The notes under the pieces were generated by a model that worked only from the letters and a program-made list of their open reading frames with translations, had not been told where the DNA came from and made no database searches. 64,000 nt of DNA from a bacterium (GTDB lineage: Bacteria > SZUA-182 > DTGQ01), in the NCBI GenBank assembly GCA_040755755.1, contig JBFLZW010000054.1, positions 6,104 through 70,103 on the forward strand. The letters run 5' to 3'. Position 1 is the stretch's first letter. Every line of letters starts with the position of its first letter. The translations under genes were made by a program, and so were the position numbers. Shown here piece after piece: positions 32,202-48,365 of the stretch.

Positions 32202-32720
32202 CTAGTTCGACTTAGGCGCCGGGGCCTTCGGTGCCGGAGCACCCTGAGATGCCGTGCCTGCCTGTGCCGGATGACACCAGATGCAGAAAGCCTGCGTATT
32301 TCCCGCCGATACCTGAGGACCTCTCAGATACATATAATTAGCATTTGACGGGTGAGGATCGTGACATCCCATACAAGTCAACTGATCTTCCTGCCCCTTG
32401 AAACCCTTGGCACTTTCCGGTAAAATAACCTTCTTCGGTTTTATGCCGCTTGGGTGAGTGCTTTCCATTTTGACGGGCCGATAACCGAGGCCATCAGGCT
32501 CCGCCGCATGGCAGGCCATGCAGATCTGTTCCATTCTTTCCAGCGGCTTTCCGGTAGCAGGATTGATGGTCGTGGTATTCGGTTTTTCAGTCAAAAGACC
32601 GGGACCTACTGCCGTATGAGCACCGTGGCAAAGAGAACATTCCTCATGACCTTCACCGGCTAATGCAATTGCTGGGGTAAGCAGAACCACGAGAAGTAGA
32701 AGGGGTAAGCTCTTTTTCAT
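32202..32720 (-). CDS. exported tetraheme cytochrome c
   Basis: 172 aa. A signal peptide (MKKSLPLLLLVVLLTPAIALA) precedes four CxxCH heme motifs (CSLCH, CMACH, CMGCH, CIWCH) and spaced extra histidines. The C-terminal tail is alanine/proline-rich (APAPKAPAPKSN). The ATG at 32720 has AAAGGAGGTGG upstream. It has its own promoter and terminator and diverges from the multiheme cluster. Likely a periplasmic electron shuttle feeding larger cytochromes; that role is inference. Confidence 0.88.
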   Translation of the reverse strand: MKKSLPLLLLVVLLTPAIALAGEGHEECSLCHGAHTAVGPGLLTEKPNTTTINPATGKPLERMEQICMACHAAEPDGLGYRPVKMESTHPSGIKPKKVILPESAKGFKGQEDQLTCMGCHDPHPSNANYMYLRGPQVSAGNTQAFCIWCHPAQAGTASQGAPAPKAPAPKSN

Positions 32721-32778
32721 TTTCTGAACCACCTCCTTTCCTGTATGGTTTGGAGTAACACGCGCTTACGTTACGTTA

Positions 32779-32975: not shown

Positions 32976-34715
32976 ATGGAGTGTTATGATAAGAAAAGAT
33001 GTTTTTCCCGTATCTTTTTTTATGCAGGTTTGATCATCCCGGTTTGGGTCGTGGTCATCACCTGTTCATTTTCGTCCGCCTTGTCCGCCCCGCTGAGCGC
33101 CAAGACAGCGGACAGGACTCTGGCTACGGTTGGCAAGAGAAAAATTACCGTTGGCGATTTTATCGATTTTTATAAAACCCGGCCCCGGATTGCACGATGG
33201 AACTCTGCGAACAGCAATCAGAATGATCCCAAAGAGGCCCTGGACGCTCTGATCGGCAAGGTCCTGATGGCTGAAGAGGCACGACGGTTATACCCCGATA
33301 CCCTGAAAAACAGCCAAAAAGAGCTGGCCGATTTTGAGCAGACCCTTCTGATCAATATGCTGACTGAAGAGCAGATCGACAAGGGCATCAGGATCGATGA
33401 GCGGGAAGTCGAGCGGCGGATCCCGGAGAATCAGAAGGTCGAGGTGCGCCTTCGCAGGATTGTGACCGCCACGCGGCAAGAGGCTCTTAGCCTGCGCAGG
33501 AAATTGGAGAACGGAGCCGACTTCAGCAGCCTGGCCAAAAAGCATTCCCTGGCCGAGGATGCCCATAAGGGGGGAGATATCGGTTATATGTCCTTCGATC
33601 AGGGCATTTTCCCCAAAAAAGTGGTAGAGGAAATCTTTCACCTGAAAAAGGGAGAAATCAGCGGTCCGGCTGCCATCCGGGAGGGATTCGCTCTGTTTCA
33701 GGTAACCGGACGAAGAAAGACCTCAGCCGAGGCCCTCGATCGGATTAAACAGTACATCCGCCAGCAGGTCAGGCTGGAGCGCAAACGGGAGCGGTGGGAC
33801 CAGCTCCTGCGGCAATTGTCCGAAGAGTCCCGGCTGGTGATCAACGAAGCTTTGTGGAAAGAAATTGAGCAGGCCATTGTTTCAGGCACCCAGGGTGCCC
33901 CCGGCCAGGGTGCGGCCTCAGTCCTGGCCAGGATGGGCGGCCTGGAAATAGCCAGGGTGGGGGACCGATCCATCCTGCTGGCGGAAATTATTCCCGATCG
34001 CGCGGACCCTTCGTTCGGAGGAGGAAGACCCTGGGAAAAAGACCCGGCCATGCTGAGAAGGCTCCTTGATCGAAAGACCAAGACCATTCTGGTAGCTGAC
34101 TATGCCCGGCAACTGCACTATGACCAGTCTCCGGAGGTAAAAAAAAATATGGCCCGGTTTAAAGATGACCTGATGACAAGGCGACTGGTTGCCGAAGGAA
34201 TATATAAAGCTCTTACGGTGAGCAGTGAAGAGTGTCAAAAGTATTATCAGGATCATCTGACCGAATACCAGGTTCCGGAAAGAGTCAGAATAAGCCAGAT
34301 CATCGTTCCGGATGAGAAAACCGCTGCCGATATTATCCACCAGCTTAATACGGGAGCTCAGTTTACTGAACTGTCAAAGAAATATCCGCCACCAGATTCA
34401 TTGACACCAGAGGGCTTTTGGGCGAGAGGGGGAAGCGCTATGGGAAAGGAATTCGAGGACCGGGTCTTTAGTTTGCGGGCAGGCGAGGTGAGTAAACCCA
34501 TCAAGACAACCAGAGGATTTCACGTGGTAAAGCTCCTTGATCGGCAAGGCAAGGGCTTTGCCAGGCTGGACGAGGTGAAATCCGGAATCAGGGACAGGCT
34601 GTTATCAGCCAAAAAAGAAAAAGCCTTACATGACCATATAACTGTTCTGCGGCGAAAAAGCCGGGTGGTGGTGAATGAATCTCTTTTTCAGGAAGTGGTT
34701 AAAAATGCGCTCTAA
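32976..34715 (+). CDS. exported double-parvulin peptidyl-prolyl isomerase
   Basis: 579 aa. A signal peptide of about 42 residues precedes a SurA_N-like helical region and two parvulin-type domains (about 155-246 and 434-528). Core motifs are GGDIGYMSFDQGIFP with EGFALFQVTGR, and EGFWARGGSAMGKEF with TRGFHVVKLLDRQGKG. AAAGGAGG precedes the ATG. Its last 11 bases overlap the start of the 27-heme cytochrome, so translation is probably coupled. By analogy with SurA/PrsA it may help fold secreted cytochromes; the pairing is inferred from position. Confidence 0.85.
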   Translation: MECYDKKRCFSRIFFYAGLIIPVWVVVITCSFSSALSAPLSAKTADRTLATVGKRKITVGDFIDFYKTRPRIARWNSANSNQNDPKEALDALIGKVLMAEEARRLYPDTLKNSQKELADFEQTLLINMLTEEQIDKGIRIDEREVERRIPENQKVEVRLRRIVTATRQEALSLRRKLENGADFSSLAKKHSLAEDAHKGGDIGYMSFDQGIFPKKVVEEIFHLKKGEISGPAAIREGFALFQVTGRRKTSAEALDRIKQYIRQQVRLERKRERWDQLLRQLSEESRLVINEALWKEIEQAIVSGTQGAPGQGAASVLARMGGLEIARVGDRSILLAEIIPDRADPSFGGGRPWEKDPAMLRRLLDRKTKTILVADYARQLHYDQSPEVKKNMARFKDDLMTRRLVAEGIYKALTVSSEECQKYYQDHLTEYQVPERVRISQIIVPDEKTAADIIHQLNTGAQFTELSKKYPPPDSLTPEGFWARGGSAMGKEFEDRVFSLRAGEVSKPIKTTRGFHVVKLLDRQGKGFARLDEVKSGIRDRLLSAKKEKALHDHITVLRRKSRVVVNESLFQEVVKNAL

Positions 34716-37700
34716 AGAAAGCGGTCAGCGGTCAGTGGTCAGTGAAGAGAAGTCAGGAGTCAGGAGCCATGATCCAGGAGAGAGAGTGGTCAGCGGTCAG
34801 TGGTCAGTGGTCAGTAAGATACTGAAAACTGATAACTTGAAACTGATAACTTCCCTTGTGCTGGCAGCCCTTACCTGCATATGCTCCCAGGCTCTGGCCG
34901 TGGATGGAGGAGTCGGACACGATATGGGCGCTCATAATCAAAAAGCAGCCGGAATCAGAGGGCCGGTGTGTGCCTCCTGTCATTTCACCAAAGCCGGTAA
35001 GAAGGAAAACGTAAAGATATGGGCTGACCTGCCCCAAGGGGCTCAAACCCTGCCGGGGGCAAAGGGCGTCCAGACCATATGCAGCAGTTGCCATTATCCG
35101 GGCAATGCGGTCAATGCCCGGTCCGGCTTCACCCTGGGCAATCATGAACCGGAAGGCCATGATTTTATCTACGGAAATGTCCTGATGGATACTTCACTCC
35201 TGGGGGTTGGTGAAAGCCACGTCATGGCCGAACGGGTGGAGACTGACCCGAACCGGGGGAAATTGCCTGCTGCCCTGGATGAAAATTTTTTCCCTCTCAC
35301 GACAGCCAGCGGCAAGGACAGCGGCTTTACCTGCACGACCTGCCATGATCCTCATATCCAGCCAAACCAGGATATCACCGGCAATGGAGACTATCTGCGA
35401 ACAAAAGAGGAAAAAACGGTCGGACAATCGGGGCAAAGAACCCCTCTCTGCCTTCAGTGCCACGAGGACAGCTCAAAGGGCCGCCAGCATGGAGGATCGT
35501 CAAGCTGCAACCAGTGCCATCACCCCCATGACGGATACTATCAGCTCAGCCGTGAGGCGCAGCTTGGCCGGTCTATTTTAACCCGGAAGGTGAGTCCGGT
35601 AAATTTCCAGGCCCTGCCGAATGTGGCTGCCTTTGGCCCTTCGGACGGACATGAATCTTCGCCGGATGTCTCCAGCCTCTGCTATAGCTGTCACGGGCCG
35701 GATGCCCCGCAGGAGATGCGGGAAGCCGGGGCTACACCCATTTTTGGCGATGGCAGCAAGACCAAAAAGGCGCACCACCCTATGGGCAGCCAGGCCCAGC
35801 TCGGAAAGGCTCTCCGGGCTCCGGGGCTTCGCAGGGCGGTCCTGAACAGCTCCGGTCAGGTAACCTGCACTTCGTGCCACAACGGGTTTCACCGGGGAAA
35901 GAATCTGCATTTTCTCAGGACAGATTTCACCGCTGACTCCGCTTCCCTGTGTACATTCTGCCATTCCGACAAGACGGCAAAAGATCTTGGAGTGGCGGGA
36001 GCGGCTCACCGCCAGGTCTGTGGCAAAAGCCCGAACCAGCGGGGAGAGTGCATGTTCTGCCACTTCATTCATGACGGTCCCGACCGGGGAGAGCACAACA
36101 GACCTGCAACCAGGGCGCTTCTGCGGATCGAGCCGGTCAACCTGGCATGGTCGGATCAGGCCAATGATACTGACACCGAAGACTTTGAAGACCTGTGTTT
36201 CGGCTGTCACAGCTCCAGTCTCTACATGAAGGGCACCGAAAAAGAGGGAGCCCGGTTGCAGCCCCAAAAGTATTTCAGCCACCGGTTTTCTTCCGTCCCC
36301 TCGGATAAGGTTCACCCGACCCTGCCGGTTTCGGACGGGGACCTTTCCGGCAAAGTCCCGGATGATTACGGAGCAGGGCAGGGGAAGATTTACTGCGGCA
36401 GTTGCCACGATGTCCACAAGAGCGCCAATGCTCCGTATCTGCGGGGCAAAGATTCTCCGTACCGGGGAAGCGGCTTTTGCGCCCGCTGCCATACCGACCT
36501 TCCAGGGAACGGGCAATCCAGCCACCCGGTTGCCGTCTGTCCGCGGCCGGGCGTTACTGACGAGAAATTCCCCCGGTTTGCGTATGGGGGAAAGAGCGGC
36601 CTTCCGCAGGGGATTACTTCTGACGAGAGCCCTGAAGGGCAGATACTCTGTCTGACCTGCCACAGCATGCATGCGGCCAAAACCAGTTTTAACGGCCGGA
36701 TCGATAGAGCCATGGCCGCTGGATCCCACGGGAAGCTGCTGGTGGCGGATAATTTTTCATCAGATGAAGGAAGCGATCTCTGCCGGTCCTGCCACACTTC
36801 CTACCAGGGAATAATTCACTCACGGCATGATTTTTCCGGCCTGAATCTGGGCTCTCCGCAATCAGGCGGCGGTGTCTGCTCCGCCTGTCATATACCCCAC
36901 GGATCGCGGGAGAAGAGCCTGCTGTGGGCGCGAAGCCTGGCCGAGGAGCGCAAAATCTTCAGGCAGGATAAAAGGCCGGATTACCAGAGAGGGGTAACGC
37001 TTTTCTGTTATGACTGCCATGATGATCATTCCGTGGCGGATGATGATCCGCCAATCAATTCCTTCCTCTATCCTCCTCAGGATATTGCCTTCAGCGACGG
37101 TCCCGGGAAAACCTCGAAGGTAGGTTTTTATGAAACCATCCCGCCGGGAAGCGTCGGGGAATACGGTCTGAAGGATCTTCCGATCACCGATTTCGAGGCA
37201 GTGGAAACAGGGGGGCATTATATCAAGACAGCCGGACTTACCGAGATTACCAATGGGATCAGCAGCGGAGACAAGCTTTCCTGCAATATCTGCCACGATC
37301 CGCACAACAGGGGCAGCGGTAATGAGGTCTTTCTCCGGAATCCCCTGGGAACCAGCTCCACAGGCCAGCTTCGGGCCAGCAGGAATACCCGGAACGGAAC
37401 TGGAACAGGCCGGGACATCTGTGTCTCCTGCCATGGCTATTCGGAATACAACCTGCCGATGAATACCCCGGTCCGTCTTTTCGGAATCGAAATCGTGAAA
37501 ACCCCCTCTCAGGATAAACTCAAACTGGCCGAGCACACATCGGATGAACATCAGGTGCCCTGCACCAAGTGCCATCTCCATAACCGTATGGCTGTCCCCC
37601 AATCTCCCCGCACCGGGCCAGGCACCCATGAATTTCACTTCAGGAGCCTTCTGACCACCGGGGAAGATACTATAATGCTCCATCAGGAAGCTCTGGGAAC

Positions 37701-39021
37701 CAGCCCTTCAGACAATAAGTGCGATATCTGTCACCCTGCGGAGCTTTCTTTCCGGGCTGGAAATCTGATCTTCAACGATGGCCAGATTCTGGCCGATACC
37801 ACGGTCTGTGATGTCTGCCACAGCCGGTGGGGACAATTCGACGGAGTGAATGACCCTGACAGTGCCAAGGCTTCCTGGAAAGAGGGCGTCTATGAAAACG
37901 ATGAATTGAAGAAAGGAAAGGATAATTGGTGTCTCGGATGCCACGATGACCAGCCCTCCCGCATTCAGAATCCTGACCTGCCGGAACAGCTCTGGATTCA
38001 GGCACCAAATATTGCCGGTACGGACAACGAAAGCGGATATCTCATCAGCGGGCATGGGTTACCCAAAGGGAAAAATTATCGATCCACCCAGCGGGGAGTA
38101 GCAGGCCGGGGAGGGGCAGGGCTGTTATGCACTGCGTGCCATTCACCGGAGGCCAGGCATATCGTTAACAGCCAGCGGGAGAAGAAGAAGAATTTCAAAA
38201 ACTGGCAGGCCAATAAATTCCGGCTGAAACAGGAGCTTGAGCTGCCCCGCAGATCCGAAGAATATCGCGGCTCCGATTTTACGCTGTGCTTCAGTTGTCA
38301 TAAGGAAAGCAAAATCGTTCATTCGGAGCCCACCATCATCGGGCTCCCGCCAGGGTATTGGGATTATACCGACAATCATAATCCGTATGTAAATCTGGAA
38401 GTTAAGAATAAGAATAGCGACAGCGGATACACCATGACCGGGTTCAGAAATGCGGACGAGCATGGCATCTACCCCTTGAGAAAAATGGGACAGGGCATAA
38501 CTATCGATTTCAGCAGGGTCTTCCCCCTGCGCAGGTATAATCTCCACTGGAATCATCTCTCCCTGCCGGATGCGGCTATTGATCCGAACGCGATCATTAC
38601 TGCACGACCTCAAAGCCAGAGCAGCACCAGCAGTAATAACCGCAGGACCCAGACCTGCTATTCGAGCCGATGTCATGCCGGGACCAGTGTGGTCAAGGAG
38701 CGTCCTGCCGCCTTCTGGGATTCGGACAAGGATGGAATACTGGATTCACGGCCCTCCTGTACGGCCTGCCATAATCCGCACGGGACCCATTATATCTCCA
38801 TGACCAGAGATGACCTCGCCATTGAGCATGATATCGATGACGCAGGTGAAGAATTTGGATTCATCGGCAGCAAGGAATATGGGGCTTATGCGGACAGCAT
38901 GGATAACTACAACGACTTATATTGCTGGGAATGCCATGCCAAGCTGCAGCGGTTCCGCGGTAATTATGTCTACTATCCATGCTCCTCGAAAGACCTCGTG
39001 GCGCCAGAGTCACCGAAGTAA
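34705..39021 (+). CDS. giant multiheme cytochrome c, 27 heme motifs
   Basis: 1438 aa. I count 26 CxxCH plus one CX4CH (CYSSRCH, 38656-38676), spread over the whole length from CASCH to CWECH, with no other recognised domain. The hydrophobic signal segment (LKLITSLVLAALTCICSQALA) lies unusually far in (from about residue 45), because the first 45 codons are made of GGTCAGTGG-type repeats. ATG 34705 was chosen for AGGAAGTGG upstream and the overlap with the isomerase gene; the real start may be further in, e.g. a GTG near 34808. No C-terminal membrane anchor. Probably secreted or outer-surface electron carrier. Paralogous to the next cytochrome. Confidence 0.88.
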   Translation: MRSKESGQRSVVSEEKSGVRSHDPGERVVSGQWSVVSKILKTDNLKLITSLVLAALTCICSQALAVDGGVGHDMGAHNQKAAGIRGPVCASCHFTKAGKKENVKIWADLPQGAQTLPGAKGVQTICSSCHYPGNAVNARSGFTLGNHEPEGHDFIYGNVLMDTSLLGVGESHVMAERVETDPNRGKLPAALDENFFPLTTASGKDSGFTCTTCHDPHIQPNQDITGNGDYLRTKEEKTVGQSGQRTPLCLQCHEDSSKGRQHGGSSSCNQCHHPHDGYYQLSREAQLGRSILTRKVSPVNFQALPNVAAFGPSDGHESSPDVSSLCYSCHGPDAPQEMREAGATPIFGDGSKTKKAHHPMGSQAQLGKALRAPGLRRAVLNSSGQVTCTSCHNGFHRGKNLHFLRTDFTADSASLCTFCHSDKTAKDLGVAGAAHRQVCGKSPNQRGECMFCHFIHDGPDRGEHNRPATRALLRIEPVNLAWSDQANDTDTEDFEDLCFGCHSSSLYMKGTEKEGARLQPQKYFSHRFSSVPSDKVHPTLPVSDGDLSGKVPDDYGAGQGKIYCGSCHDVHKSANAPYLRGKDSPYRGSGFCARCHTDLPGNGQSSHPVAVCPRPGVTDEKFPRFAYGGKSGLPQGITSDESPEGQILCLTCHSMHAAKTSFNGRIDRAMAAGSHGKLLVADNFSSDEGSDLCRSCHTSYQGIIHSRHDFSGLNLGSPQSGGGVCSACHIPHGSREKSLLWARSLAEERKIFRQDKRPDYQRGVTLFCYDCHDDHSVADDDPPINSFLYPPQDIAFSDGPGKTSKVGFYETIPPGSVGEYGLKDLPITDFEAVETGGHYIKTAGLTEITNGISSGDKLSCNICHDPHNRGSGNEVFLRNPLGTSSTGQLRASRNTRNGTGTGRDICVSCHGYSEYNLPMNTPVRLFGIEIVKTPSQDKLKLAEHTSDEHQVPCTKCHLHNRMAVPQSPRTGPGTHEFHFRSLLTTGEDTIMLHQEALGTSPSDNKCDICHPAELSFRAGNLIFNDGQILADTTVCDVCHSRWGQFDGVNDPDSAKASWKEGVYENDELKKGKDNWCLGCHDDQPSRIQNPDLPEQLWIQAPNIAGTDNESGYLISGHGLPKGKNYRSTQRGVAGRGGAGLLCTACHSPEARHIVNSQREKKKNFKNWQANKFRLKQELELPRRSEEYRGSDFTLCFSCHKESKIVHSEPTIIGLPPGYWDYTDNHNPYVNLEVKNKNSDSGYTMTGFRNADEHGIYPLRKMGQGITIDFSRVFPLRRYNLHWNHLSLPDAAIDPNAIITARPQSQSSTSSNNRRTQTCYSSRCHAGTSVVKERPAAFWDSDKDGILDSRPSCTACHNPHGTHYISMTRDDLAIEHDIDDAGEEFGFIGSKEYGAYADSMDNYNDLYCWECHAKLQRFRGNYVYYPCSSKDLVAPESPK
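34721..34851. repeat. GGTCAGTGG-type repeat cluster within a coding 5' end
   Basis: Tandem and near-tandem words: GGTCAGCGGTCAGTGGTCAGTG at 34722-34744, AGTCAGGAGTCAGGAG at about 34751-34766, a second GTGGTCAGCGGTCAGTGGTCAGTGG at 34787-34811, and ACTGATAACTT twice at about 34826-34851. In frame they encode QRSVVSEE and SGQWSVVSK. The same words recur at 39025, 55237, 58389 and 61598. Confidence 0.85.
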
Positions 39022-39024
39022 GGG

Positions 39025-39059
39025 AGTGGTCAGTGGTCACTGATCACTGACCACTTTTT
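39025..39059 (+). terminator. repeat-derived terminator after the 27-heme gene
   Basis: AGTGGTCAGTG (39025-39035) pairs perfectly with CACTGACCACT (39045-39055) and is followed by TTTTT. It begins three bases after the stop codon and is composed of the GGTCAGTGG-type repeat. It would separate the 27-heme gene from the 22-heme gene unless read through. Confidence 0.7.
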
Positions 39060-39351
39060 CCCCTTCCGGCCGGGTCAGGATCAAAATTTCCAAAAATAAC
39101 TGTAAAGCATATTGTAGTTTTCGCTGGAGTAGGTTAAAATAGTAAAGACTCCATCTCCCCAGAATCAGGAATCAAACTTGCAAGTATAACCTAACGCTGT
39201 ACCAGACAAAACTTTAACTGAAAATGCTCTTACCTGAACGGCTGCCTGAAGTTGCAGCTCAGTGGATGGTTATTGGCTGCTTCCTGCTGGTGAAAGGTTA
39301 GAGTGAGACGAGCTTATTAGAGCTTATTAGTGTGAAAATAACAGACTGAAT
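39060..39351. other. intergenic region before the 22-heme gene
   Basis: About 290 bp (330 bp including the terminator repeat). It contains GGTTAAAATAG near 39130, a possible -10 without a good -35, and a direct repeat GAGCTTATTAGAGCTTATTAG just before the gene. A leader or promoter is expected here but I cannot define it. Confidence 0.4.
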
Positions 39352-42300
39352 ATGAAAATTTTTTCCCATGCCTTTCTCCAATTGGTCATCGCCGGTAGTC
39401 TGGCCGTATGCCTTTACCTTATTTTTCCTTCGGCAGTCATGGCCGTGAACGGGCCCCATTTCTTTGATCCGAATATGGAAGGTGTAGATAGGGGGACATA
39501 CCGGGGGGCCTGTGCGGTCTGCCATACACCGCATGGAGGAAAGGGACCGAAGATATGGGCCAAAGATATTCCTGATCCGGAGAATGCCACCTTCGGTGGA
39601 GTCCGCGGGCTTTGCTATTCCTGTCATGACGGTTCAGGAGGCGCTTACAGCGGGCTGCGGGATGTCTTCTCCCGGAAAAACTTTGAAGACCATGTCATGC
39701 ACACGGCAGCGACCGTCAAACCGGGTGATTATCCCCTGGCTGCCAGCCTGAAGATGGTTGGCAGTATCAATAAGAAGGTCTTTCCGCTGAATCCCGAGGA
39801 CTGGGATACGGTCCCCTCTGTCAAGGCGGGGACTGCTCACGGACGCCAGAACCTTAATTATTATCGGGGAGGGAGCGGCTTTTACTGCGGGAGCTGCCAT
39901 AACCCCCACGGAGATCCTTCGGGAGTCTATCAGCAGGGCAGTGATTACCTTCGCAGTAAGGATAAAAATGTCGGTACTCCCGGCAGAAGGAAGGAATTCT
40001 GCAACGAGTGTCACGGCAATATCCATGCGCCGGACAGTGATTGCCTGGACTGCCATCATCCTCACCAGGGGGCAACCCTGATTTCCGATAATGAGGTCAT
40101 TGGCCGCAAGATTTTTATCCATGAGGTGGTTCCCGTGCCGTTTGCAGCCAAACCCAATGTCCCGCGAATTACGGATGGTCCGGGAAACGACTTTCCGTCT
40201 TCTCTCTGCTACGGCTGTCACGGTCCGCAGGGCGCGGCCCAATGGGGTCCGGCAGGTGCAACCACCATTTATGGCGATGACAGTGCCACTCCCCGGGAAC
40301 ATCATCCGATGGGCACGCAGGCGGTTCTGGGAAAGATTCCCCGGGCCAGGGGGTGTGGAGAATCCCTGATGAATAAAGCGGGTGAATTGACCTGCACCTC
40401 CTGTCATGATGGATTTCATCAGGGCGATCGGGCCAACAATTTTCTGCGCTGGGATTTTTCCCAGGATTCGGCGCTCTTTTGCTGTGTGTGTCATCCGGAC
40501 AAAAGCGCCTATAATCTGGGAGATGAAAAGTACGGTCATCACCAGATGTGCGAAACTTCTCCGCTCAAGCGTCTGGTGACGGTAAAGGATGCGGAAACCA
40601 AAGCCAATATACAGAAGCAGGCAGGCTGCGGCAACTGCATGCTCTGCCATTTTATTCATGACGGACAGAATGAGGATGGGACTCAGCGGGGAGAGCTTTT
40701 AACCCCTGACCTGGATGCCCTGATGCGGGTTCCCCCGCTGAATCTGGCCTGGGCGGACAAATGGAACGATGCTGATCTTTTTGATTATGAAGACATGTGT
40801 TTTGGCTGTCATGGCCGCTCCAGCATCGTCAAGGGACCGGGCCTTTCCGGTTCCAAGCTGCTTCCTCCCCGCAGCCTCGATCCGGCGGAGCGGACCATAC
40901 CGGGAAGCATCCGGTTCAGCCACCGGTTCGCCACCGCGCCAAAGAGTGAGACGACGGCTCTCAATATCAGGCCGGGAGGCAAGTTTCCGCTGTCGGACGG
41001 TCCTGGTCCCGTTACCCTGGACGATTACGGAGTGAGTGCCGGGCTGATTTACTGCGGGACCTGTCACGATGTCCACAATAATCGCAGTAACCCCCGCTCT
41101 CCCTACCTCCACGGCACGCAATCCCCCTATGCGGCCATGGGATTCTGTGAAGAATGCCATACCGCTCCCGGCAGCACCATGTTCGTCGATCCTCTGCTCA
41201 ACCACCCGCTGGGTAGGGGGCCAAACCTTGCTTCCGGTACGACCAGCATAAGCTGGCTGCCGGAATTTACGACCGGCCTGAGCGGAGAAAAAGGCGGGGT
41301 CACATTCACCCCTGCCGGAGAGGCCCCGGCCGCAGGACGGGTTATCTGTCTGACCTGCCACAGCGTTCACGCAGCCTCCACCACCTTTGACGGATGGGCG
41401 GACTTTCCCCATTCCCTCGATGGAGTATCCGCTCCGGGAAATCATGGCAACCTGCTGGTGATGGATAATTATTTCGATCCTTCGGGCAGTGACATGTGCA
41501 TCCGCTGTCATCCCGGTGTTTCCGGAATTGTCAATTCTCCCCATGATTTTTCACCCGGCTACCGGCCCGGGTGCAAGATCGGTCAAAAGGGCCTGTGCTC
41601 CGCCTGTCATGTGCCGCATAATGCCGCCGCAGGAATAACCTGGAACAATAAGCCGATCATGTGGGCCAGAAGTCTGACTGCCGAAGAGTCCTGCTTCCAG
41701 CAGAAAATCAACCCTGCCTATACACTCGGCGATACCATTTTGTGCTATGACTGTCATTCCCGCTGCAACGACGATCCTCCTCTGGCTGCCTACGGGGAGT
41801 TTATTCCACAGGATGTGGCTTTCGTGGATATGCCCGGAGGAGAGCTGATCGGTTATTATGAAATCGCTCCCCTCTGGCTGCAAAATGTGCCTCCTTACGG
41901 GTTTAAAACAGGCGGCCATTATATCAAGTCACCCATGACCGGCGGGATTATGAAAGGTGATAAACTGGCCTGCAGCGACTGCCATGACCCCCATCGGGGC
42001 TGGACCAAGGCCAAAACCCAGAACCAGGCGTTTATCAAGGAAGTTTTAGGGGGGAAGGTCAATGGCGGATTCTATGCCAGCCGCAATATGGCTTACCACA
42101 AGGAACAGCGCAACAGTACCGAAAGCCGCCTGATCTGCGTCAACTGCCACGGCTGGTCATATCAGCCCTCAAGCGGTCTTGGACCGGCATCGGTGCCCTT
42201 TGTGGCCGTCAACCCCTCCTGGGGGAGCCCGCAGCCGATTACTCCGCCGACTCCGACCGTGTATGAGCATTCCAGCCTGGGGGCTTATGCCTGTACCGAC

Positions 42301-42897
42301 TGTCATCAGCATAACCGGATTACGGTCTTTTGCATCGACTGCCACAGCTTCCCGCCGACAACCACCGGCAACGGCTGGTCAAAACCCGGGGATACGGATG
42401 AGAATTACCCTGGCGGGGCCGGTGCCCATTCGGTGCATGTTTTCAACTGCAAGTACGATTGCCTGACCTGCCATGTCGGCTGCCTGCATAACGCTGGTGG
42501 GGCGACTGTGGCTAATCCGATTTTTATCCGCTCGAAAGTCAGTGTCGATTTTAATCCCCTCTTCGGCTTTCCCCGGGTAGTGGGGGAGTATCCGACCAAA
42601 ATGAGCTATCCGGGATTGCCTGCTTTATACAATCCGATTGAGCAGACCTGCTTCGTAGGATGTCATAACCCTCTGGTGGGAGACCCGGATGAGGCCCCGA
42701 ATCTGATAAATCCAACCCCCAGTTGGTCCCTGGCCATCAAGCGGCCGACACCGCCGACTACCCCGTCACCCTCGCTGCCTGCCTGGATGCCGAACCCGCT
42801 GCTTGATCCGGAGTATCAGAAACTGCTGACCGCGCCGCAGGCGCTGCCACCTGAAGTTTTACCCGGAGTGCCCTGGCCTTTACCGGCGATCCCTTAG
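39352..42897 (+). CDS. giant multiheme cytochrome c, 22 heme motifs
   Basis: 1181 aa. A signal peptide (LVIAGSLAVCLYLIFPSAVMA) is followed by 21 CxxCH motifs and one CX3CH (CFVGCH, 42649-42666). It aligns motif for motif with the preceding cytochrome over much of its length: compare CGTCHDVHNNRS with CGSCHDVHKSAN, CLTCHSVHAA with CLTCHSMHAA, CSACHVPH with CSACHIPH, and CYDCH. The proline-rich C-terminus lacks hemes. The ribosome-binding site before ATG 39352 is weak. Likely a second surface or periplasmic multiheme carrier that arose by tandem duplication. Confidence 0.88.
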   Translation: MKIFSHAFLQLVIAGSLAVCLYLIFPSAVMAVNGPHFFDPNMEGVDRGTYRGACAVCHTPHGGKGPKIWAKDIPDPENATFGGVRGLCYSCHDGSGGAYSGLRDVFSRKNFEDHVMHTAATVKPGDYPLAASLKMVGSINKKVFPLNPEDWDTVPSVKAGTAHGRQNLNYYRGGSGFYCGSCHNPHGDPSGVYQQGSDYLRSKDKNVGTPGRRKEFCNECHGNIHAPDSDCLDCHHPHQGATLISDNEVIGRKIFIHEVVPVPFAAKPNVPRITDGPGNDFPSSLCYGCHGPQGAAQWGPAGATTIYGDDSATPREHHPMGTQAVLGKIPRARGCGESLMNKAGELTCTSCHDGFHQGDRANNFLRWDFSQDSALFCCVCHPDKSAYNLGDEKYGHHQMCETSPLKRLVTVKDAETKANIQKQAGCGNCMLCHFIHDGQNEDGTQRGELLTPDLDALMRVPPLNLAWADKWNDADLFDYEDMCFGCHGRSSIVKGPGLSGSKLLPPRSLDPAERTIPGSIRFSHRFATAPKSETTALNIRPGGKFPLSDGPGPVTLDDYGVSAGLIYCGTCHDVHNNRSNPRSPYLHGTQSPYAAMGFCEECHTAPGSTMFVDPLLNHPLGRGPNLASGTTSISWLPEFTTGLSGEKGGVTFTPAGEAPAAGRVICLTCHSVHAASTTFDGWADFPHSLDGVSAPGNHGNLLVMDNYFDPSGSDMCIRCHPGVSGIVNSPHDFSPGYRPGCKIGQKGLCSACHVPHNAAAGITWNNKPIMWARSLTAEESCFQQKINPAYTLGDTILCYDCHSRCNDDPPLAAYGEFIPQDVAFVDMPGGELIGYYEIAPLWLQNVPPYGFKTGGHYIKSPMTGGIMKGDKLACSDCHDPHRGWTKAKTQNQAFIKEVLGGKVNGGFYASRNMAYHKEQRNSTESRLICVNCHGWSYQPSSGLGPASVPFVAVNPSWGSPQPITPPTPTVYEHSSLGAYACTDCHQHNRITVFCIDCHSFPPTTTGNGWSKPGDTDENYPGGAGAHSVHVFNCKYDCLTCHVGCLHNAGGATVANPIFIRSKVSVDFNPLFGFPRVVGEYPTKMSYPGLPALYNPIEQTCFVGCHNPLVGDPDEAPNLINPTPSWSLAIKRPTPPTTPSPSLPAWMPNPLLDPEYQKLLTAPQALPPEVLPGVPWPLPAIP

Positions 42898-42948
42898 AAG
42901 GGGAGGCTTTTTACCGATAAAAAAATTAACTGAGGAGATGAGGTTGCT

Positions 42949-44541
42949 TTGAAGGTATACGGGCAAATAAAAAATCGCAGATTCAAAATGGTAATCAAAA
43001 TCGTGGGCTGGAGCGCTCTATTCATCGCCATGGGCATTTCAGGATACAACATACTGCATACTCTTTTTGCAGAGGCTCAGGTTCCTTTGCCACCGCCAAC
43101 AAGTCCGCCGTTGAGCTGTACCGGCTGCCATGATTTTCAGGCCAGTCTGTTTACCAGCTTCCCCGACCATCACCCCAATGCCGTTGCCTCCTCGGTTTCA
43201 ACCGATATGGTGACCAAGGTAAATGCCATCCGCCAGGACTGCTGCGCCTGCCATAATTACCTGATCAACCATACGCGGGGTGTGGTCATGCTCCGTGACC
43301 CTGATCCCCTGGATGCCTACCCCTATAATGGGGACCCGATTCTGACCAACAATTTTTGCCTCAGCTGCCATGACCTCCCCAACGACCCGGCAAATCCGCC
43401 GGTCTGGTTCAGTGTCAACGGCGTGGTCTCGCCAAGCAGGATCATCGCTCCCCTGTGGAGCGTGCCCTGTGGCCATGCGGTCAACCGGAGGCGAAACCTG
43501 CGCTGCCTCGACTGCCACAAGTATCATGGATCAAACTTCAAGAGCATGCTCCAGCTTGAGCAGCCGCGGCTGTGTTACATGAATGGCTGTCATCCGGAAA
43601 AAGCTGTTGAATTCGATCCCCTGAATCCCTCCCATCATCATGTCGAGGGTGTGCTGCTCGGCGGAGTGCCAAGCAATGTAATTGCCTGCTGTGACTGCCA
43701 TAACCCGCATCACGATACCACGATGGAAGCCGGGCATCCGATTTCCGATCCCTATTCGAAAGCCGATTTATATCCGGTTACGCCGGTTCCGGAGGCAACG
43801 TTGCCCATCATCGGCATAGCCGGATTTCCGATCTCAGGGACACCCTTTTATGTCGGCAATGTCAATGCAGCCGGAGTTCCGGCTGTGGACCTGTTCTGCC
43901 TGGAATGCCATGCACCGGATATCTTCACCCCTCCGAACCCGCCCTGGCCGGGGGCACCGAATATTTCCTTTGAGCTGAATAATAAATATTACGATCCGCT
44001 GCTGACAGCCTCCAATTTCTTTTACCCCCATCAGCATGCCCCGGCTTCGGGGAGTTGCAGTACCTGCCATCTGGTCAAAACAGGGACCCGGCCGTTTAAT
44101 GTCATCAATGGCCATTATACCCATTTAAAAAATGGCTCCTGCACCTATTGCCATGATCCCCACGGAACCCTGGGAACTTTTGTCGGCGGGACGGTCGCAG
44201 GCACTATCGGTGTTCAGCGGGGACACATTTTAAAAGACTGGCTGCTGGCCGATGCAGCCGTAGTCAGCCCCCTTCCCGCCGGAGGGGGATATCAGGCCGT
44301 GGGTTCCCCCGCTACTGCAACAGCGGTTATTACCTCGGTTAACGGGGCTTCAAGCTGCTATATCAATGATCCCCTGGGGGGATGTCACAGCATCACCCAC
44401 ATCCATAACCCGGTTAAGATCAAAACAAATATCACCTGTAATACGACTTCCTGTCATCTGAAATTCGTTCCTCTCCTGCTGCGCCAGGGAGCGACGACGT
44501 CGGGGAAAAAGGATGATGTGGCTCCCGAGCCACCGAAATGA
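42949..44541 (+). CDS. membrane-anchored or exported decaheme-type cytochrome c
   Basis: 530 aa. One hydrophobic N-terminal segment (IVGWSALFIAMGISGYNILHTLF) precedes eight CxxCH motifs (CTGCH, CCACH, CLSCH, CLDCH, CCDCH, CLECH, CSTCH, CTYCH) and two CX4CH (CYMNGCH 43573-43593, CNTTSCH 44437-44457). A CX8CH (CYINDPLGGCH, 44356-44388) is a possible eleventh site. The TTG at 42949 is the likely start: TGAGGAGATGAGG lies just before it, and the ATG at 42938 hits a stop within four codons. It follows the 22-heme gene by 51 bases. Confidence 0.85.
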   Translation: MKVYGQIKNRRFKMVIKIVGWSALFIAMGISGYNILHTLFAEAQVPLPPPTSPPLSCTGCHDFQASLFTSFPDHHPNAVASSVSTDMVTKVNAIRQDCCACHNYLINHTRGVVMLRDPDPLDAYPYNGDPILTNNFCLSCHDLPNDPANPPVWFSVNGVVSPSRIIAPLWSVPCGHAVNRRRNLRCLDCHKYHGSNFKSMLQLEQPRLCYMNGCHPEKAVEFDPLNPSHHHVEGVLLGGVPSNVIACCDCHNPHHDTTMEAGHPISDPYSKADLYPVTPVPEATLPIIGIAGFPISGTPFYVGNVNAAGVPAVDLFCLECHAPDIFTPPNPPWPGAPNISFELNNKYYDPLLTASNFFYPHQHAPASGSCSTCHLVKTGTRPFNVINGHYTHLKNGSCTYCHDPHGTLGTFVGGTVAGTIGVQRGHILKDWLLADAAVVSPLPAGGGYQAVGSPATATAVITSVNGASSCYINDPLGGCHSITHIHNPVKIKTNITCNTTSCHLKFVPLLLRQGATTSGKKDDVAPEPPK

Positions 44542-44583
44542 CTTACCAAGCTGCCAGGAAACAATGATGAGGAGCAATTGACC

Positions 44584-47500
44584 ATGTTGATCACGAATCT
44601 GCAAGAGAGGTTGAGAGTGAGAGGGAATAAGCCGCCTTTATCAGAGTCTGGTTGTGCTCATGGGTTTTGCCGGAGTGCTTTATGGAGTTCAGGTATTTTC
44701 ACGCTGATCTTAAGCCTTTGGCTGATAATGCTTTTTTCTTCCTCTGCCTGGGCCATTCGGGCCATAGCGGGAGATGGACAGATTCAGATATCCTGGATTT
44801 CTCCCACCAAAAACGTGGATGGGACTCCTCTTCTGGACCTGGCCGGATATGATATCTACCGGGGAACCACGCGGGAAGAACAGAAAGAGAAAATAAACAG
44901 GGAGCTTATCTCTGAATGCTCGTATATCGACAGCGGGCTCAAAAACGGCCAGACATACTATTATGTCGTCAGAGCGGTGGATTTCAGCGGTAATCCGAGC
45001 GCTCCATCCGAATATGTCTTTGCCACTCCCACCATCCTTCCCCCGCCAGGATTTGCCGCCATCGGCGATGACAACCGGGTCAAGCTGTTCTGGGAGGAAA
45101 GCGCGAATCGCTCGATCCGGGGATACCATCTGTACCGGACCGGCAGGCAGGGACAGGAATATCGAAAAATCACCGAGGTGCCCATCGAATGCACCTATTT
45201 TGAAGACCATGAGGTAAAAAATGGTCTTACCTATTACTATACTATTACCTCCGTCAGCGAGGATGGACTGGAAAGCCCCCAGTCCGAGGAAAAGGAGGCG
45301 ACTCCCAGTGCCAATCCGGTCGAGCCTTCCGATTTGAAAGCTGCCTATGTGCTGGGCAAGGTTAAACTGGAATGGCCGGCAAGCACTGACCCTCAACTTG
45401 CAGGCTATCACGTTTACCGGCGAAACTCCATTGAAGAAAAGCAATTTCAAAAACTCACCGAAAAATTGCTTGTCGCTACCTCCTACCTGGACGAAACCGC
45501 TGAAGAAAATAAACGATACCTCTATTCGGTGGTCAGCGTGAACAAGCAGGGAAAAGAGAGCAAGTTCCCGCTGGAGGTCCACTGCTATACGCAGAGCCTG
45601 TACATTGCCTCCATCACCGAAGATACGGAAGGGAAAGCCCGGAAGGCCGGTGATATAGTCACGCTCGTTATGCGGGGTGAGCCTGGCTGCCATGCCTCTT
45701 TTACTATCGAAGGCCTGACCGAGAATCAGGCCATGAAAGAGACCAGCCCCGGTGTATACCATCGGGAATTCATCATACCCAAGGGTGCCAATTTGAGCAA
45801 TGCGCCGGTTTGGGGATGCCTTGCCGATACCCGGGACAACAGGAGCATGAAAAAGGCTGCGGGCACAATTTCCATTAAAAACGATCCGCCGCCGCCGGTC
45901 CAGGCTGTCACCGGCAAGATCAATGCTTACGGTCAGCCTGAAATATCCTGGACACCACCCCCTCCGGAGAGTTTCTCGGCGGTGGAAGTTATCCGCTCGC
46001 CTTCGGCCATTGATCCGGACTTCCCGCCGCCATCGGCTGATATTCTCGTCAAGAAAGAGCTTTCCACCTATACCGATGAAAAGGCTGATGCCGGTGCGCT
46101 TTACTATTACGTAGTCCGGACCGTGGATGAGGCCGGGAACCGGTCGAAGATTTCCGAGGCAGTGCCGATTGATCTGTCGCAGCACGCTTCGTCTCCGGCC
46201 ATTTATTCCGTTATCGACGATACCCTGGGAGTTCCGGTTAAAACAGGCCGGATCATCAAAGTAACCGTGGAAGGGGACCGGGGATGCGAAGCCTCCTTTT
46301 CCATAGAGGGAGTGGTTCAGTGGAGTCCTCTGGAAGAGCTGCGTCCGGGAATCTATCAGGGTGAATACGAAGTCAAGGCGACGGATGAAGCAAAGGAGGC
46401 AGTCCTGGTGGCCAGATTGGTTGACCAGGCTAAAAGAGAAAAGCTTGGCAAGGGTGAAAAGCCCCTGCGGATCAACGTCCAGGCGGATGACCGGGAGCCG
46501 CCCGCTATTGCCAGAGTCGAGCATAATGGCACCCGGGTAGCCGGAATTTCGGGAAAGCTGGTGGCCGGAGACCTGCTCTGCGTTACCCTTTCCGGGGAGC
46601 CTGGGGGAATCGCCTTTTTCAGCCTCGGCCCCGAAGGGAAGAAGGTCTCAATGGAGGAATCCCGGTTCACTCAGGGAGAATATCAGGGCACCTATGCCAT
46701 TCAGCCGGGAGATGATGCAGAGGAAATCACGGTCTGGGGGCATTTGTCCGATCCGGCTGGCAATATAACCAGCAAGAGCAGCGAAAATCGCCTGACGATC
46801 GACACCCGGGCCATCATTACCGTGAAACCGGAAAAGGGTGATGATTCGCTGCATGCCGATGAAAAATCTCAAAAAGAGATCACCATAGAGGTCAAGGATG
46901 TCAATGAAAAGCCCTTAAGCAACCATCATATTGCCTTGACCCTGTCCACAACCGATGAATATACGGATGTTGTTGGCGGAGGTGACTTTGGCCAGAAAAT
47001 CGACAATGGGAAACTGGCCATTGACTTCGAGGATGTCACCGACAGTTTCGGGCGGATCAAGGCCAAATATACAGCCGGTAATGCTGCCAAAACAGCCCTG
47101 ATTATCGCCAAAGACCTGGATACCGGCCATGCTGGAGCAGGCTATATAACCACCTATATTGAAAGCAGCCTGGACCTTTGGCTGGTACAGCCGATGCAGC
47201 AAAGCAGAGCCCTGGCAGAAGCCGAAGATGGAGATGCAGTCAGTATGATCCTGACGGCAGACCCGGAAAACATCACGGCAGATGGCCGCAGCCGGTCGAG
47301 GATCACCGTCCGGCTGCTGGATAAATACGGGAAACCGGCTGCCAGGAAATACCGGGTTTCATTCTCTCAGGTGTTTCCAGATAAGCCTGAGGGGAGGCTG
47401 AGTCCCCAGACAATCGAAACTCATGCAGGAAGCGGGTATGTCTATTATCAGGCAGGAAAAAATTACGGTCCGGTAACCATACAAGCGGTAGCCACGCGGG

Positions 47501-48177
47501 TGGAAAACCCTGAGAGTGCTCCTCCAGTCGCCCCGGTAGAAGTCAGCATCTACCAAATGAGCGATGCCCCGGCCAGGCTTATTATGGAGACTGATCCGGA
47601 GAAGAAGAACACTCTTGAAACGGACATCGGAGATTCTGTCAATATCAAGCTCACCGTTACCGATATCAATAAAAACCCCAATCAGGATGCTGTTATCCAG
47701 CTCTGGTTACAGGATGAGCGAGGGAATATTTCCCGAAATGGCAGGCTGTCAGCATCTGCCCTGGAAACCGATAAAAATGGCGGGGCCTCCTGCACCTACT
47801 GGGCAGGTCAAACTCCTGGCCTTGTGCGAATCATGGCCAGATATACTTCTGAGATACCGAGGAAGGAGAAGGAGCTTCTTCGCGCCCGCGGGAGCCTCTT
47901 TGTTCCGCTCTGGAAGCAGGAAGAAGACAGCATCCTCGATAGCCATCGATGGATGGACATGGTCAGGGATGTTCAGGGGACTATCAAGGAATGGTTCAAA
48001 GCCGAGGGTGACGAGGTCCATAAAGGAGAGCCGCTGGCCCTCATCGAAATCGAACGGCACGGCGAAATCGTGCTCAGGGCTCCGGGTGATGGAAGACTGA
48101 TCGATATCAAAGTACTGCGGGGAGAAGATATCCTGGTCGGCCAGACAGTTGGATTTATGGAACTTGAGGAGAAGTAA
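44584..48177 (+). CDS. exported fibronectin III / Ig / Big-1-like multidomain protein ending in a lipoyl-like domain
   Basis: 1197 aa. An N-terminal hydrophobic segment (FTLILSLWLIMLFSSSAWA) serves for export. Approximate order: three FN3 domains (60-340, e.g. LAGYDIYRGTT, YYYVVRAVDFSGN), an Ig-like unit, a fourth FN3, two more Ig-like units (GDRGCEASFSIEG, GEPGGIAFFSLG), three Big-1/invasin-like domains (745-1100; e.g. ADPENITADGRSRSRITVRLLDKYGKP), then about 75 residues of barrel-sandwich lipoyl-like fold (AEGDEVHKGEPLALIEIERHGE, APGDGRLIDIKVLRGEDILVGQ). The lysine normally modified is replaced (IERHGE). ATG 44584 has GAGGAG ten bases before it. Follows the cytochromes by 42 bases; proposed scaffold or surface-display partner, by context only. 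Confidence 0.82.
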   Translation: MLITNLQERLRVRGNKPPLSESGCAHGFCRSALWSSGIFTLILSLWLIMLFSSSAWAIRAIAGDGQIQISWISPTKNVDGTPLLDLAGYDIYRGTTREEQKEKINRELISECSYIDSGLKNGQTYYYVVRAVDFSGNPSAPSEYVFATPTILPPPGFAAIGDDNRVKLFWEESANRSIRGYHLYRTGRQGQEYRKITEVPIECTYFEDHEVKNGLTYYYTITSVSEDGLESPQSEEKEATPSANPVEPSDLKAAYVLGKVKLEWPASTDPQLAGYHVYRRNSIEEKQFQKLTEKLLVATSYLDETAEENKRYLYSVVSVNKQGKESKFPLEVHCYTQSLYIASITEDTEGKARKAGDIVTLVMRGEPGCHASFTIEGLTENQAMKETSPGVYHREFIIPKGANLSNAPVWGCLADTRDNRSMKKAAGTISIKNDPPPPVQAVTGKINAYGQPEISWTPPPPESFSAVEVIRSPSAIDPDFPPPSADILVKKELSTYTDEKADAGALYYYVVRTVDEAGNRSKISEAVPIDLSQHASSPAIYSVIDDTLGVPVKTGRIIKVTVEGDRGCEASFSIEGVVQWSPLEELRPGIYQGEYEVKATDEAKEAVLVARLVDQAKREKLGKGEKPLRINVQADDREPPAIARVEHNGTRVAGISGKLVAGDLLCVTLSGEPGGIAFFSLGPEGKKVSMEESRFTQGEYQGTYAIQPGDDAEEITVWGHLSDPAGNITSKSSENRLTIDTRAIITVKPEKGDDSLHADEKSQKEITIEVKDVNEKPLSNHHIALTLSTTDEYTDVVGGGDFGQKIDNGKLAIDFEDVTDSFGRIKAKYTAGNAAKTALIIAKDLDTGHAGAGYITTYIESSLDLWLVQPMQQSRALAEAEDGDAVSMILTADPENITADGRSRSRITVRLLDKYGKPAARKYRVSFSQVFPDKPEGRLSPQTIETHAGSGYVYYQAGKNYGPVTIQAVATRVENPESAPPVAPVEVSIYQMSDAPARLIMETDPEKKNTLETDIGDSVNIKLTVTDINKNPNQDAVIQLWLQDERGNISRNGRLSASALETDKNGGASCTYWAGQTPGLVRIMARYTSEIPRKEKELLRARGSLFVPLWKQEEDSILDSHRWMDMVRDVQGTIKEWFKAEGDEVHKGEPLALIEIERHGEIVLRAPGDGRLIDIKVLRGEDILVGQTVGFMELEEK

Positions 48178-48335: not shown

Positions 48336-48365
48336 TTGACAGTATCCCGTATCAGGGAGTAAATT
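48336..48365 (+). promoter_or_regulatory. possible promoter placing the transcript start at the ATG
   Basis: TTGACA (48336-48341), 18-base spacer and TAAATT (48360-48365). The predicted start at about 48372 coincides with the ATG at 48373, so the mRNA would be leaderless or nearly so. Confidence 0.4.

Follow-up and report, generated by a model that had tools for sequence, protein, structure and literature searches.

Gene content of the locus

The window (the whole 64,000-nucleotide stretch analysed, numbered from its first letter) is part of contig 54 of a 5.26 Mb genome in 88 contigs. It contains five plus-strand genes, here called ppi, cytA, cytB, cytC and fn3, and a divergently oriented tetraheme cytochrome gene. 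A preliminary description of this DNA had reported these six genes; the five plus-strand genes lie where it had placed them, and our heme motif counts for the three larger cytochromes (27, 22 and 10-11) agree with it. The features are as follows.

32202..32732, minus strand: divergent tetraheme c-type cytochrome (176 aa), likely a small periplasmic carrier
32976..34715, plus strand: ppi, exported protein with two parvulin (PpiC-type) domains, likely an envelope chaperone (579 aa)
34675..39021, plus strand: cytA, 27-heme cytochrome composed of a 14-heme module and 13 hemes (1448 aa)
34927..36837, plus strand: 14-heme module of cytA, from alignment with homologues
39107..39141, plus strand: promoter-like block in the cytA-cytB gap, from conservation
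39352..42897, plus strand: cytB, 22-heme cytochrome composed of a 14-heme module and 8 hemes, with a proline-rich C-terminus (1181 aa)
39451..41556, plus strand: 14-heme module of cytB, from alignment with homologues
42949..44541, plus strand: cytC, 10- or 11-heme cytochrome (530 aa)
44578..48177, plus strand: fn3, exported scaffold with FN3, Ig-like and tandem Big_1 domains and a C-terminal barrel-sandwich (lipoyl-like) domain
46483..47913, plus strand: conserved core of the scaffold family (...VAGxSxKLVAGD... and tandem Big_1)
47974..48150, plus strand: lipoyl-like (barrel-sandwich) domain of fn3, lacking a conserved acceptor lysine and found only in the window-type scaffold

The ppi and cytA genes overlap by 41 bp, and the following gaps measure 330 bp (cytA-cytB), 51 bp (cytB-cytC) and 36 bp (cytC-fn3). 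Translation of fn3 from its TTG start gives 1199 aa, while the ATG at 44584 gives 1197 aa, the length stated in the preliminary description. A stretch of 243 bp lies between ppi and the divergent tetraheme gene, whose product is 95% identical within the genus and 75% identical within the order. All five proteins of the block have signal-like N-termini (judged by eye). Pfam and NCBIfam searches found two parvulin (Rotamase) domains above cut-off in Ppi, Paired_CXXCH and Cytochrome_C7 in the cytochromes, and fn3, Big_1, Invasin_D3 and Biotin_lipoyl in Fn3; none of the block's proteins reached the cut-off of an NCBIfam equivalog model. Two tRNAs were the only Rfam matches in the window, with no riboswitch or other family near the block.

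On the 3' side of fn3 lie a coiled-coil gene, which has its own promoter-like site at 48336, and then a radical-SAM gene; both are absent at that spot in the relatives. We also considered recent horizontal acquisition and dropped it, as GC3 over the block (0.59-0.62) is like that of most neighbours.

Conservation of the five-gene block

Our search sample comprised up to 337 genomes, including a member of the same genus (G001), two of the same family (G002 and G003) and one of the same order (G004). The preliminary description had named beforehand the co-occurrence of the five families in other genomes as the test that could refute its reading; we found that the arrangement ppi-cytA-cytB-cytC-fn3 recurs, with unchanged gene orientation, at the genus, family and order levels, in G001 (JAILZY010000015), G002 (DAOURK010000081) and G004 (JAFGSM010000151, Zod_Metabat.896), all metagenome-assembled genomes. 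Four of the five known members of this uncultured order thus show the block, the fifth (G003) being too fragmented; there, cytA and cytB sit on contig ends, and a profile search of this fragmented assembly found no cytC. The heme counts of CytA, CytB and CytC are 27, 22 and 10 in both G001 and G002, and 27, 50 and 10 in G004, where two extra genes lie between ppi and cytA.

The genes flanking the block are replaced in G002 and G004, indicating that the grouping of the five genes is itself what is preserved. Identity to the window proteins falls from 68-90% within the genus to 32-46% within the order, so the shared gene order is not a mere result of recent divergence. The five genes are a conserved unit. 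Profile searches of the 337 genomes, four of them from the same class, found neither cytC (E<=1e-12) nor the 14-heme module (E<=1e-25) outside the order, although only the best few candidates per genome were scored and distant relatives may be missed.

Transcription units

The cytA-cytB gap is 330, 474, 458 and 392 bp long in the four complete loci and contains a conserved 35 bp block, GCATATTGTAGTTTT(N7)GTAGGTTAAAATA, that includes TTGTAG-N17-TAAAAT (with TTGTGA in two relatives). It is conserved in the window, G001, G002 and, more changed, G003. We did not see it in G004, and the window genome has a single copy. From this conservation we infer that the block is a promoter for cytB-cytC-fn3. 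Because a promoter-like block is conserved at this position, the five genes likely form two transcription units, ppi-cytA and cytB-cytC-fn3, and a single five-gene transcript is not supported. The divergent tetraheme gene has a promoter-like sequence of its own (TTGACA-N18-TAATAT, 32808-32779 on the minus strand), in a stretch conserved in the sister species.

Ppi is a likely chaperone

Both domains of Ppi match the parvulins PrsA, SurA and PpiC. Parvulin active sites usually carry signature histidines. In Ppi, the two signature histidines are missing from domain 1 in all four orthologs and inconstant in domain 2. The two parvulin domains of the preliminary description are thus present, but the isomerase activity ascribed to them does not follow. 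Because the signature histidines are not conserved, we treat Ppi as a probable envelope chaperone, whether or not it can isomerise proline; a chaperone role seems as likely as that of an isomerase. In one relative, the Ppi N-terminus is lipoprotein-like.

CytA and CytB share a 14-heme module

The heme motifs comprise 26 CXXCH and one CX4CH in CytA, 21 CXXCH and one CX3CH in CytB, and eight CXXCH and two CX4CH in CytC, where a conserved C-x(8 or more)-CH may be an 11th heme site. CytA, CytB, CytC and the tetraheme cytochrome contain 26, 21, 8 and 4 CXXCH motifs, where shuffled proteins average 0.13, 0.11, 0.07 and 0.01; an excess of more than 100-fold cannot be ascribed to chance. No CXXCK motif occurs in the cytochromes, and the N-termini of CytA, CytB and CytC show no lipobox by eye. 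CytC has no paralog in the window genome.

CytA and CytB are paralogs (38% identity) built on one common 14-heme module, beyond which CytA continues with 13 further hemes and CytB with 8. The module is also repeated: the CytB homologue of G004 has three (28 + 14 + 8 = 50 hemes), while contig 22 of the window genome encodes two single-module cytochromes with 14 and 15 hemes. Cytochromes of this type have one heme for roughly every 54 aa. A chain of bis-His hemes requires a distal histidine for each heme, while a catalytic site normally shows as an unpaired heme. In an alignment of 13 modules, every module keeps the same 14 CXXCH motifs and the same 13 free histidines, which is the pattern of a bis-His wire, and CytA and CytB look like pure electron wires.

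The same data bear on the idea that these proteins are multiheme oxidoreductases, acting for example on sulfur or nitrogen compounds. NCBIfam does find a weak similarity to the octaheme tetrathionate reductase and DmsE families, and there are short matches to NrfA chains in the PDB. However, the family similarities lie far below the cut-offs, CXXCK is missing and, with 13 invariant free histidines for 14 hemes, hardly any heme could be left open for catalysis, making an enzymatic function highly improbable.

We also compared the module with solved structures. By sequence, the nearest is 7tfs, which we take to be the OmcE filament subunit (E 6e-10 over ~150 residues); matches to OmcS are short and weak. 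An AlphaFold2 model of the CytB module, built from nine sequences, had a mean pLDDT of only 28.7 and was set aside, with no fold search on it. The likeness to 7tfs raises the question of whether the locus assembles polymeric nanowires of the OmcS/OmcE type, with one of the cytochromes polymerising and the PPIase as its folding factor. OscH, the folding factor of the osc cluster, is a prolyl isomerase. For the Geobacter osc operon, a folding factor with secretion companions and the assisted folding of nanowire cytochromes have been proposed, according to a paper that cites this work (PMC13194489). Against polymerisation, CytA and CytB are several times the length of a filament subunit, the block has no beta-propeller, and the OmcE match is limited to a short stretch of heme motifs. 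We therefore regard a nanowire locus as quite unlikely.

The putative Fn3 scaffold is genetically tied to giant cytochromes

A structural model of Fn3 (pLDDT 60) is of low resolution and contains only a string of beta-sandwiches; Foldseek matched it to generic FN3/Ig proteins, mostly at TM 0.1-0.2, and we give these matches no functional weight. By Pfam, fn3 encodes no inverse-autotransporter beta-barrel or LysM domain, and no lipobox was seen by eye. The nearest solved structures of the scaffold core include intimin and invasin. The barrel-sandwich domain at the C-terminus is similar to domains of periplasmic adaptor proteins. This domain had been called lipoyl-like, which holds for its fold, as it matches Biotin_lipoyl in Pfam, but not for lipoyl chemistry; in four Fn3 orthologs, the acceptor lysine is not conserved at its usual position.

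A profile of the whole scaffold matches 72 of the 337 genomes, mostly through its FN3 repeats. We rejected these repeats as a conserved signal, as they match many unrelated proteins with no cytochromes around them; the core and Big_1 domains are the informative part. A profile of the core (residues ~640-1110) finds full-length matches only in the order's five genomes (nine loci) and in one other phylum, in both of its sampled genomes (G156 and G294, three loci); the core is a distinct family. It lies in a multiheme-cytochrome cluster at 12/12 loci, which are drawn from seven genomes in two phyla and are not independent. At 11 of these, a cytochrome adjoins the core or is fused to it; at the other, on contig 10 of G001, the cytochrome is a few kb off and the upstream side ends at the contig edge. 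Control loci with FN3 or Big domains only had a cytochrome nearby in 0/37 cases (Fisher p ~1e-4 for the three other-phylum core loci against these controls, uncorrected for the fact that two of the three are in one genome). In G156, a PPIase gene also adjoins the core locus, and in G094 a weaker, partial scaffold homologue directly follows a row of 20-, 14- and 44-heme proteins.

Gene fusions point the same way. In G002 and G004, which belong to different families, a scaffold of the type found on contig 42 (see below) is fused in frame to a 13-heme domain, giving proteins of 1768 and 1845 aa; the domain is homologous to the start of the giant contig-42 cytochrome. Such a fusion is good evidence that both parts work together, although it belongs, as does the barrel-like neighbour described below, to a paralogous locus and not to the window locus. 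This FN3/Big family is tied to giant multiheme cytochromes both by its neighbours in two phyla and by fused genes, as the preliminary description had proposed for Fn3. Fn3 could instead be an independent adhesin that merely adjoins cytochrome genes, and generic FN3/Big_1 proteins are indeed common, as the 72 matching genomes show. Given the contrast between the core loci, including two fusions, and the controls, we consider this extremely unlikely.

A second cytochrome cluster in the same genome

A paralog of the scaffold (1207 aa) is encoded on contig 42 of the window genome, inside a 40-kb cytochrome cluster. This cluster also encodes NHL propellers, a giant 2561-aa 27-heme protein, a barrel-like protein, a CsgG-like protein, a GNA1162-like protein, a PPIase, a 27-heme protein with a lipoprotein-like N-terminus, a 16-heme cytochrome, a lactonase-type propeller and a b561-type cytochrome. 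In contig-42-type loci of four genomes, the barrel-like gene is directly downstream of the scaffold paralog. NHL/propeller genes are present on contigs 42 and 22 of the window genome.

A possible electron path outside the cell

The block had been described as a candidate electron conduit. In the porin-cytochrome sense this is not supported, since the block lacks an outer-membrane barrel gene in the window, G001, G002 and G004. A role in extracellular electron transfer seems likely, and on balance we lean towards the block being a dedicated, order-specific set that builds a path for electrons at the outer face of the envelope. Ppi would escort the very long, cysteine- and proline-rich cytochromes after export, during heme attachment. 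CytA and CytB would serve as long multi-module wires, and CytC would join them to other carriers, perhaps the divergent tetraheme cytochrome. Fn3 would act as a scaffold or tether, holding the wires at the surface or to a matrix, mineral or partner cell. Since the block has no barrel, the step across the outer membrane would have to rely on a component from another locus, for example the contig-42 cluster, with its scaffold paralog and barrel-like gene. The surface location, the direction of electron flow, the outer-membrane crossing and all protein contacts in this model are inferred from sequence.

Alternatively, nothing in the block may be surface-exposed: the cytochromes could be periplasmic charge stores or bridges across the periplasm, with Fn3 as a periplasmic spacer or a scaffold on the peptidoglycan side. 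This would fit the lack of an outer-membrane barrel or secretion gene in every complete block, the lack of a lipobox on the cytochromes and Fn3, and the adaptor-like barrel-sandwich domain. However, strings of FN3 and Big_1/Invasin domains are typical of surface proteins, the core's nearest solved structures include intimin and invasin, and in four genomes a barrel-like gene follows the paralogous scaffold gene. We consider a purely periplasmic system unlikely.

Comparison with known electron-export systems

Most known electron-export routes rely either on a cytochrome housed in a porin or on cytochrome polymers. Porin-cytochrome conduits (MtrCAB, OmbB-OmaB-OmcB, ExtABCD, OetABI) share the proposed role of moving electrons across or out of the envelope, but the window block has no outer-membrane barrel, its cytochromes differ in size and architecture, and they have no lipobox.

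A PPIase gene beside giant cytochromes is already known (PMC5539420, PMC12246660). SEEP-SRB1 and other Deltaproteobacteria have a four-gene extracellular electron transfer operon encoding 26-heme and 16-heme cytochromes, a PPIase and a six-bladed beta-propeller (Skennerton et al. 2017, PMC5539420), and in the oet clusters the cytochrome encoded by oetF carries fibronectin domains (Murali et al. 2023, PMC10553843). As in this SEEP-SRB1/oet/osc type, the PPIase gene of the window adjoins two giant cytochromes. Unlike it, the window block has no NHL/propeller domain (Pfam) and no porin, its cytochromes differ in architecture from the published descriptions (the 14-heme module), and it has a separate FN3/Big/lipoyl-like scaffold. 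It is the contig-42 cluster, not the window block, that resembles the published type.

Other systems share single elements with the block. Leptothrix mofABC encodes a multicopper oxidase, the PPIase MofB and the cytochrome c MofC (reviewed in PMC5566968); both loci put a PPIase beside an exported redox protein and a cytochrome, but the window block has no multicopper oxidase and its redox proteins are giant cytochromes. FN3 domains occur on redox proteins themselves in Geobacter OmpB, an outer-surface redox protein (PMC5566968), and in Geoalkalibacter ferrihydriticus, where an FN3-bearing 24-heme cytochrome lies beside a 38-heme cytochrome (PMC12016550). In the latter, FN3 is within the cytochrome, whereas in the window it belongs to a protein of its own, 1199 residues long, which also has tandem Big_1 domains and a barrel-sandwich domain. 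Tandem Big_1/Invasin_D3 domains are common to Fn3 and the intimin/invasin adhesins, but Fn3 has an ordinary signal-like N-terminus in place of their inverse-autotransporter barrel and LysM domain. In the openly licensed literature, we came across neither a free-standing FN3/Big scaffold family linked to giant cytochromes nor the 14-heme module.

The block matches no catalogued system and is a probable route for passing electrons outside the cell. What sets it apart is a large non-heme scaffold with genetic links to giant cytochromes in two phyla, together with a 14-heme cassette that single proteins contain in one or three copies. We tentatively suggest, with low confidence, that it represents a novel architecture for electron export, in which a dedicated beta-sandwich scaffold holds modular giant cytochromes (with up to three 14-heme units) outside the cell, with neither polymer nor porin. 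If so, the scaffold family, which occurs in two or more phyla and in some cases as a fusion with a cytochrome, would be a sequence marker for such systems. Should the role be confirmed, the scaffold core would offer a searchable marker for electron-exporting lineages that have no cultured members, and the 14-, 22-, 27- and 50-heme proteins would form a natural series for testing how wire length affects electron transfer.

Scaffold relatives and cytochromes

A 13-heme cytochrome domain is joined in-frame to an FN3/Big scaffold in two families of the order, as in the following genes:

L072:10674-15980, minus strand, cytochrome-scaffold fusion, 1768 aa
L073:1098-6635, plus strand, cytochrome-scaffold fusion, 1845 aa

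Outside the order, relatives of the scaffold core (fn3 residues about 640-1110) occur in two genomes of one other phylum, G156 (contig C139, L129) and G294 (L130 and L131). Each directly adjoins a giant cytochrome (at least 24, at least 26 and 34 hemes). The N-terminal part of the G156 relative has a weak laminin-G-like match in place of FN3 repeats. In the unrelated genome G094 (C83:14000-52000; L096 and L074), an FN3/Big protein of 1342 aa follows a run of multiheme proteins with 20, 14 and 44 hemes (the last of 5555 aa), and the next gene is ResB-like, judging from its N-terminus.

Variation in heme modules

The 14-heme module common to cytA and cytB also occurs in other arrangements. In G004, a relative in the same order, one uninterrupted frame on contig C231 (L062:12235-20000, running on into L063) encodes a protein of 2611 aa, in which three modules and 8 further hemes add up to 50 heme motifs. 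Single-module cytochromes (14 and 15 hemes) are interleaved with two NHL propellers on contig 22 of G000, the genome of the window, and this gene set is kept in the sister species (L068). The alternation (115-128 kb, L066) follows a sigma-54 activator and precedes a 1068-aa Reg_prop/Big_5 protein.

At protein positions 470-480 of cytC (window 42949-44541), a conserved Cys is followed at least 8 residues on by CH, with a spacing that differs between orthologs; this is possibly an unusual eleventh heme site.

A second cytochrome cluster

G000 also carries a multiheme-cytochrome cluster of roughly 40 kb on contig 42 (about 40-80 kb; L005, L006, L097). Its cytochromes are a 2561-aa 27-heme protein, a lipoprotein-like 27-heme cytochrome, a 16-heme cytochrome, a 28-heme protein and a b561-type cytochrome, accompanied by a scaffold paralog, a barrel-like protein, a CsgG-like lipoprotein, a PPIase and propellers. 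This cluster resembles the published SEEP-SRB1/oet/osc type.
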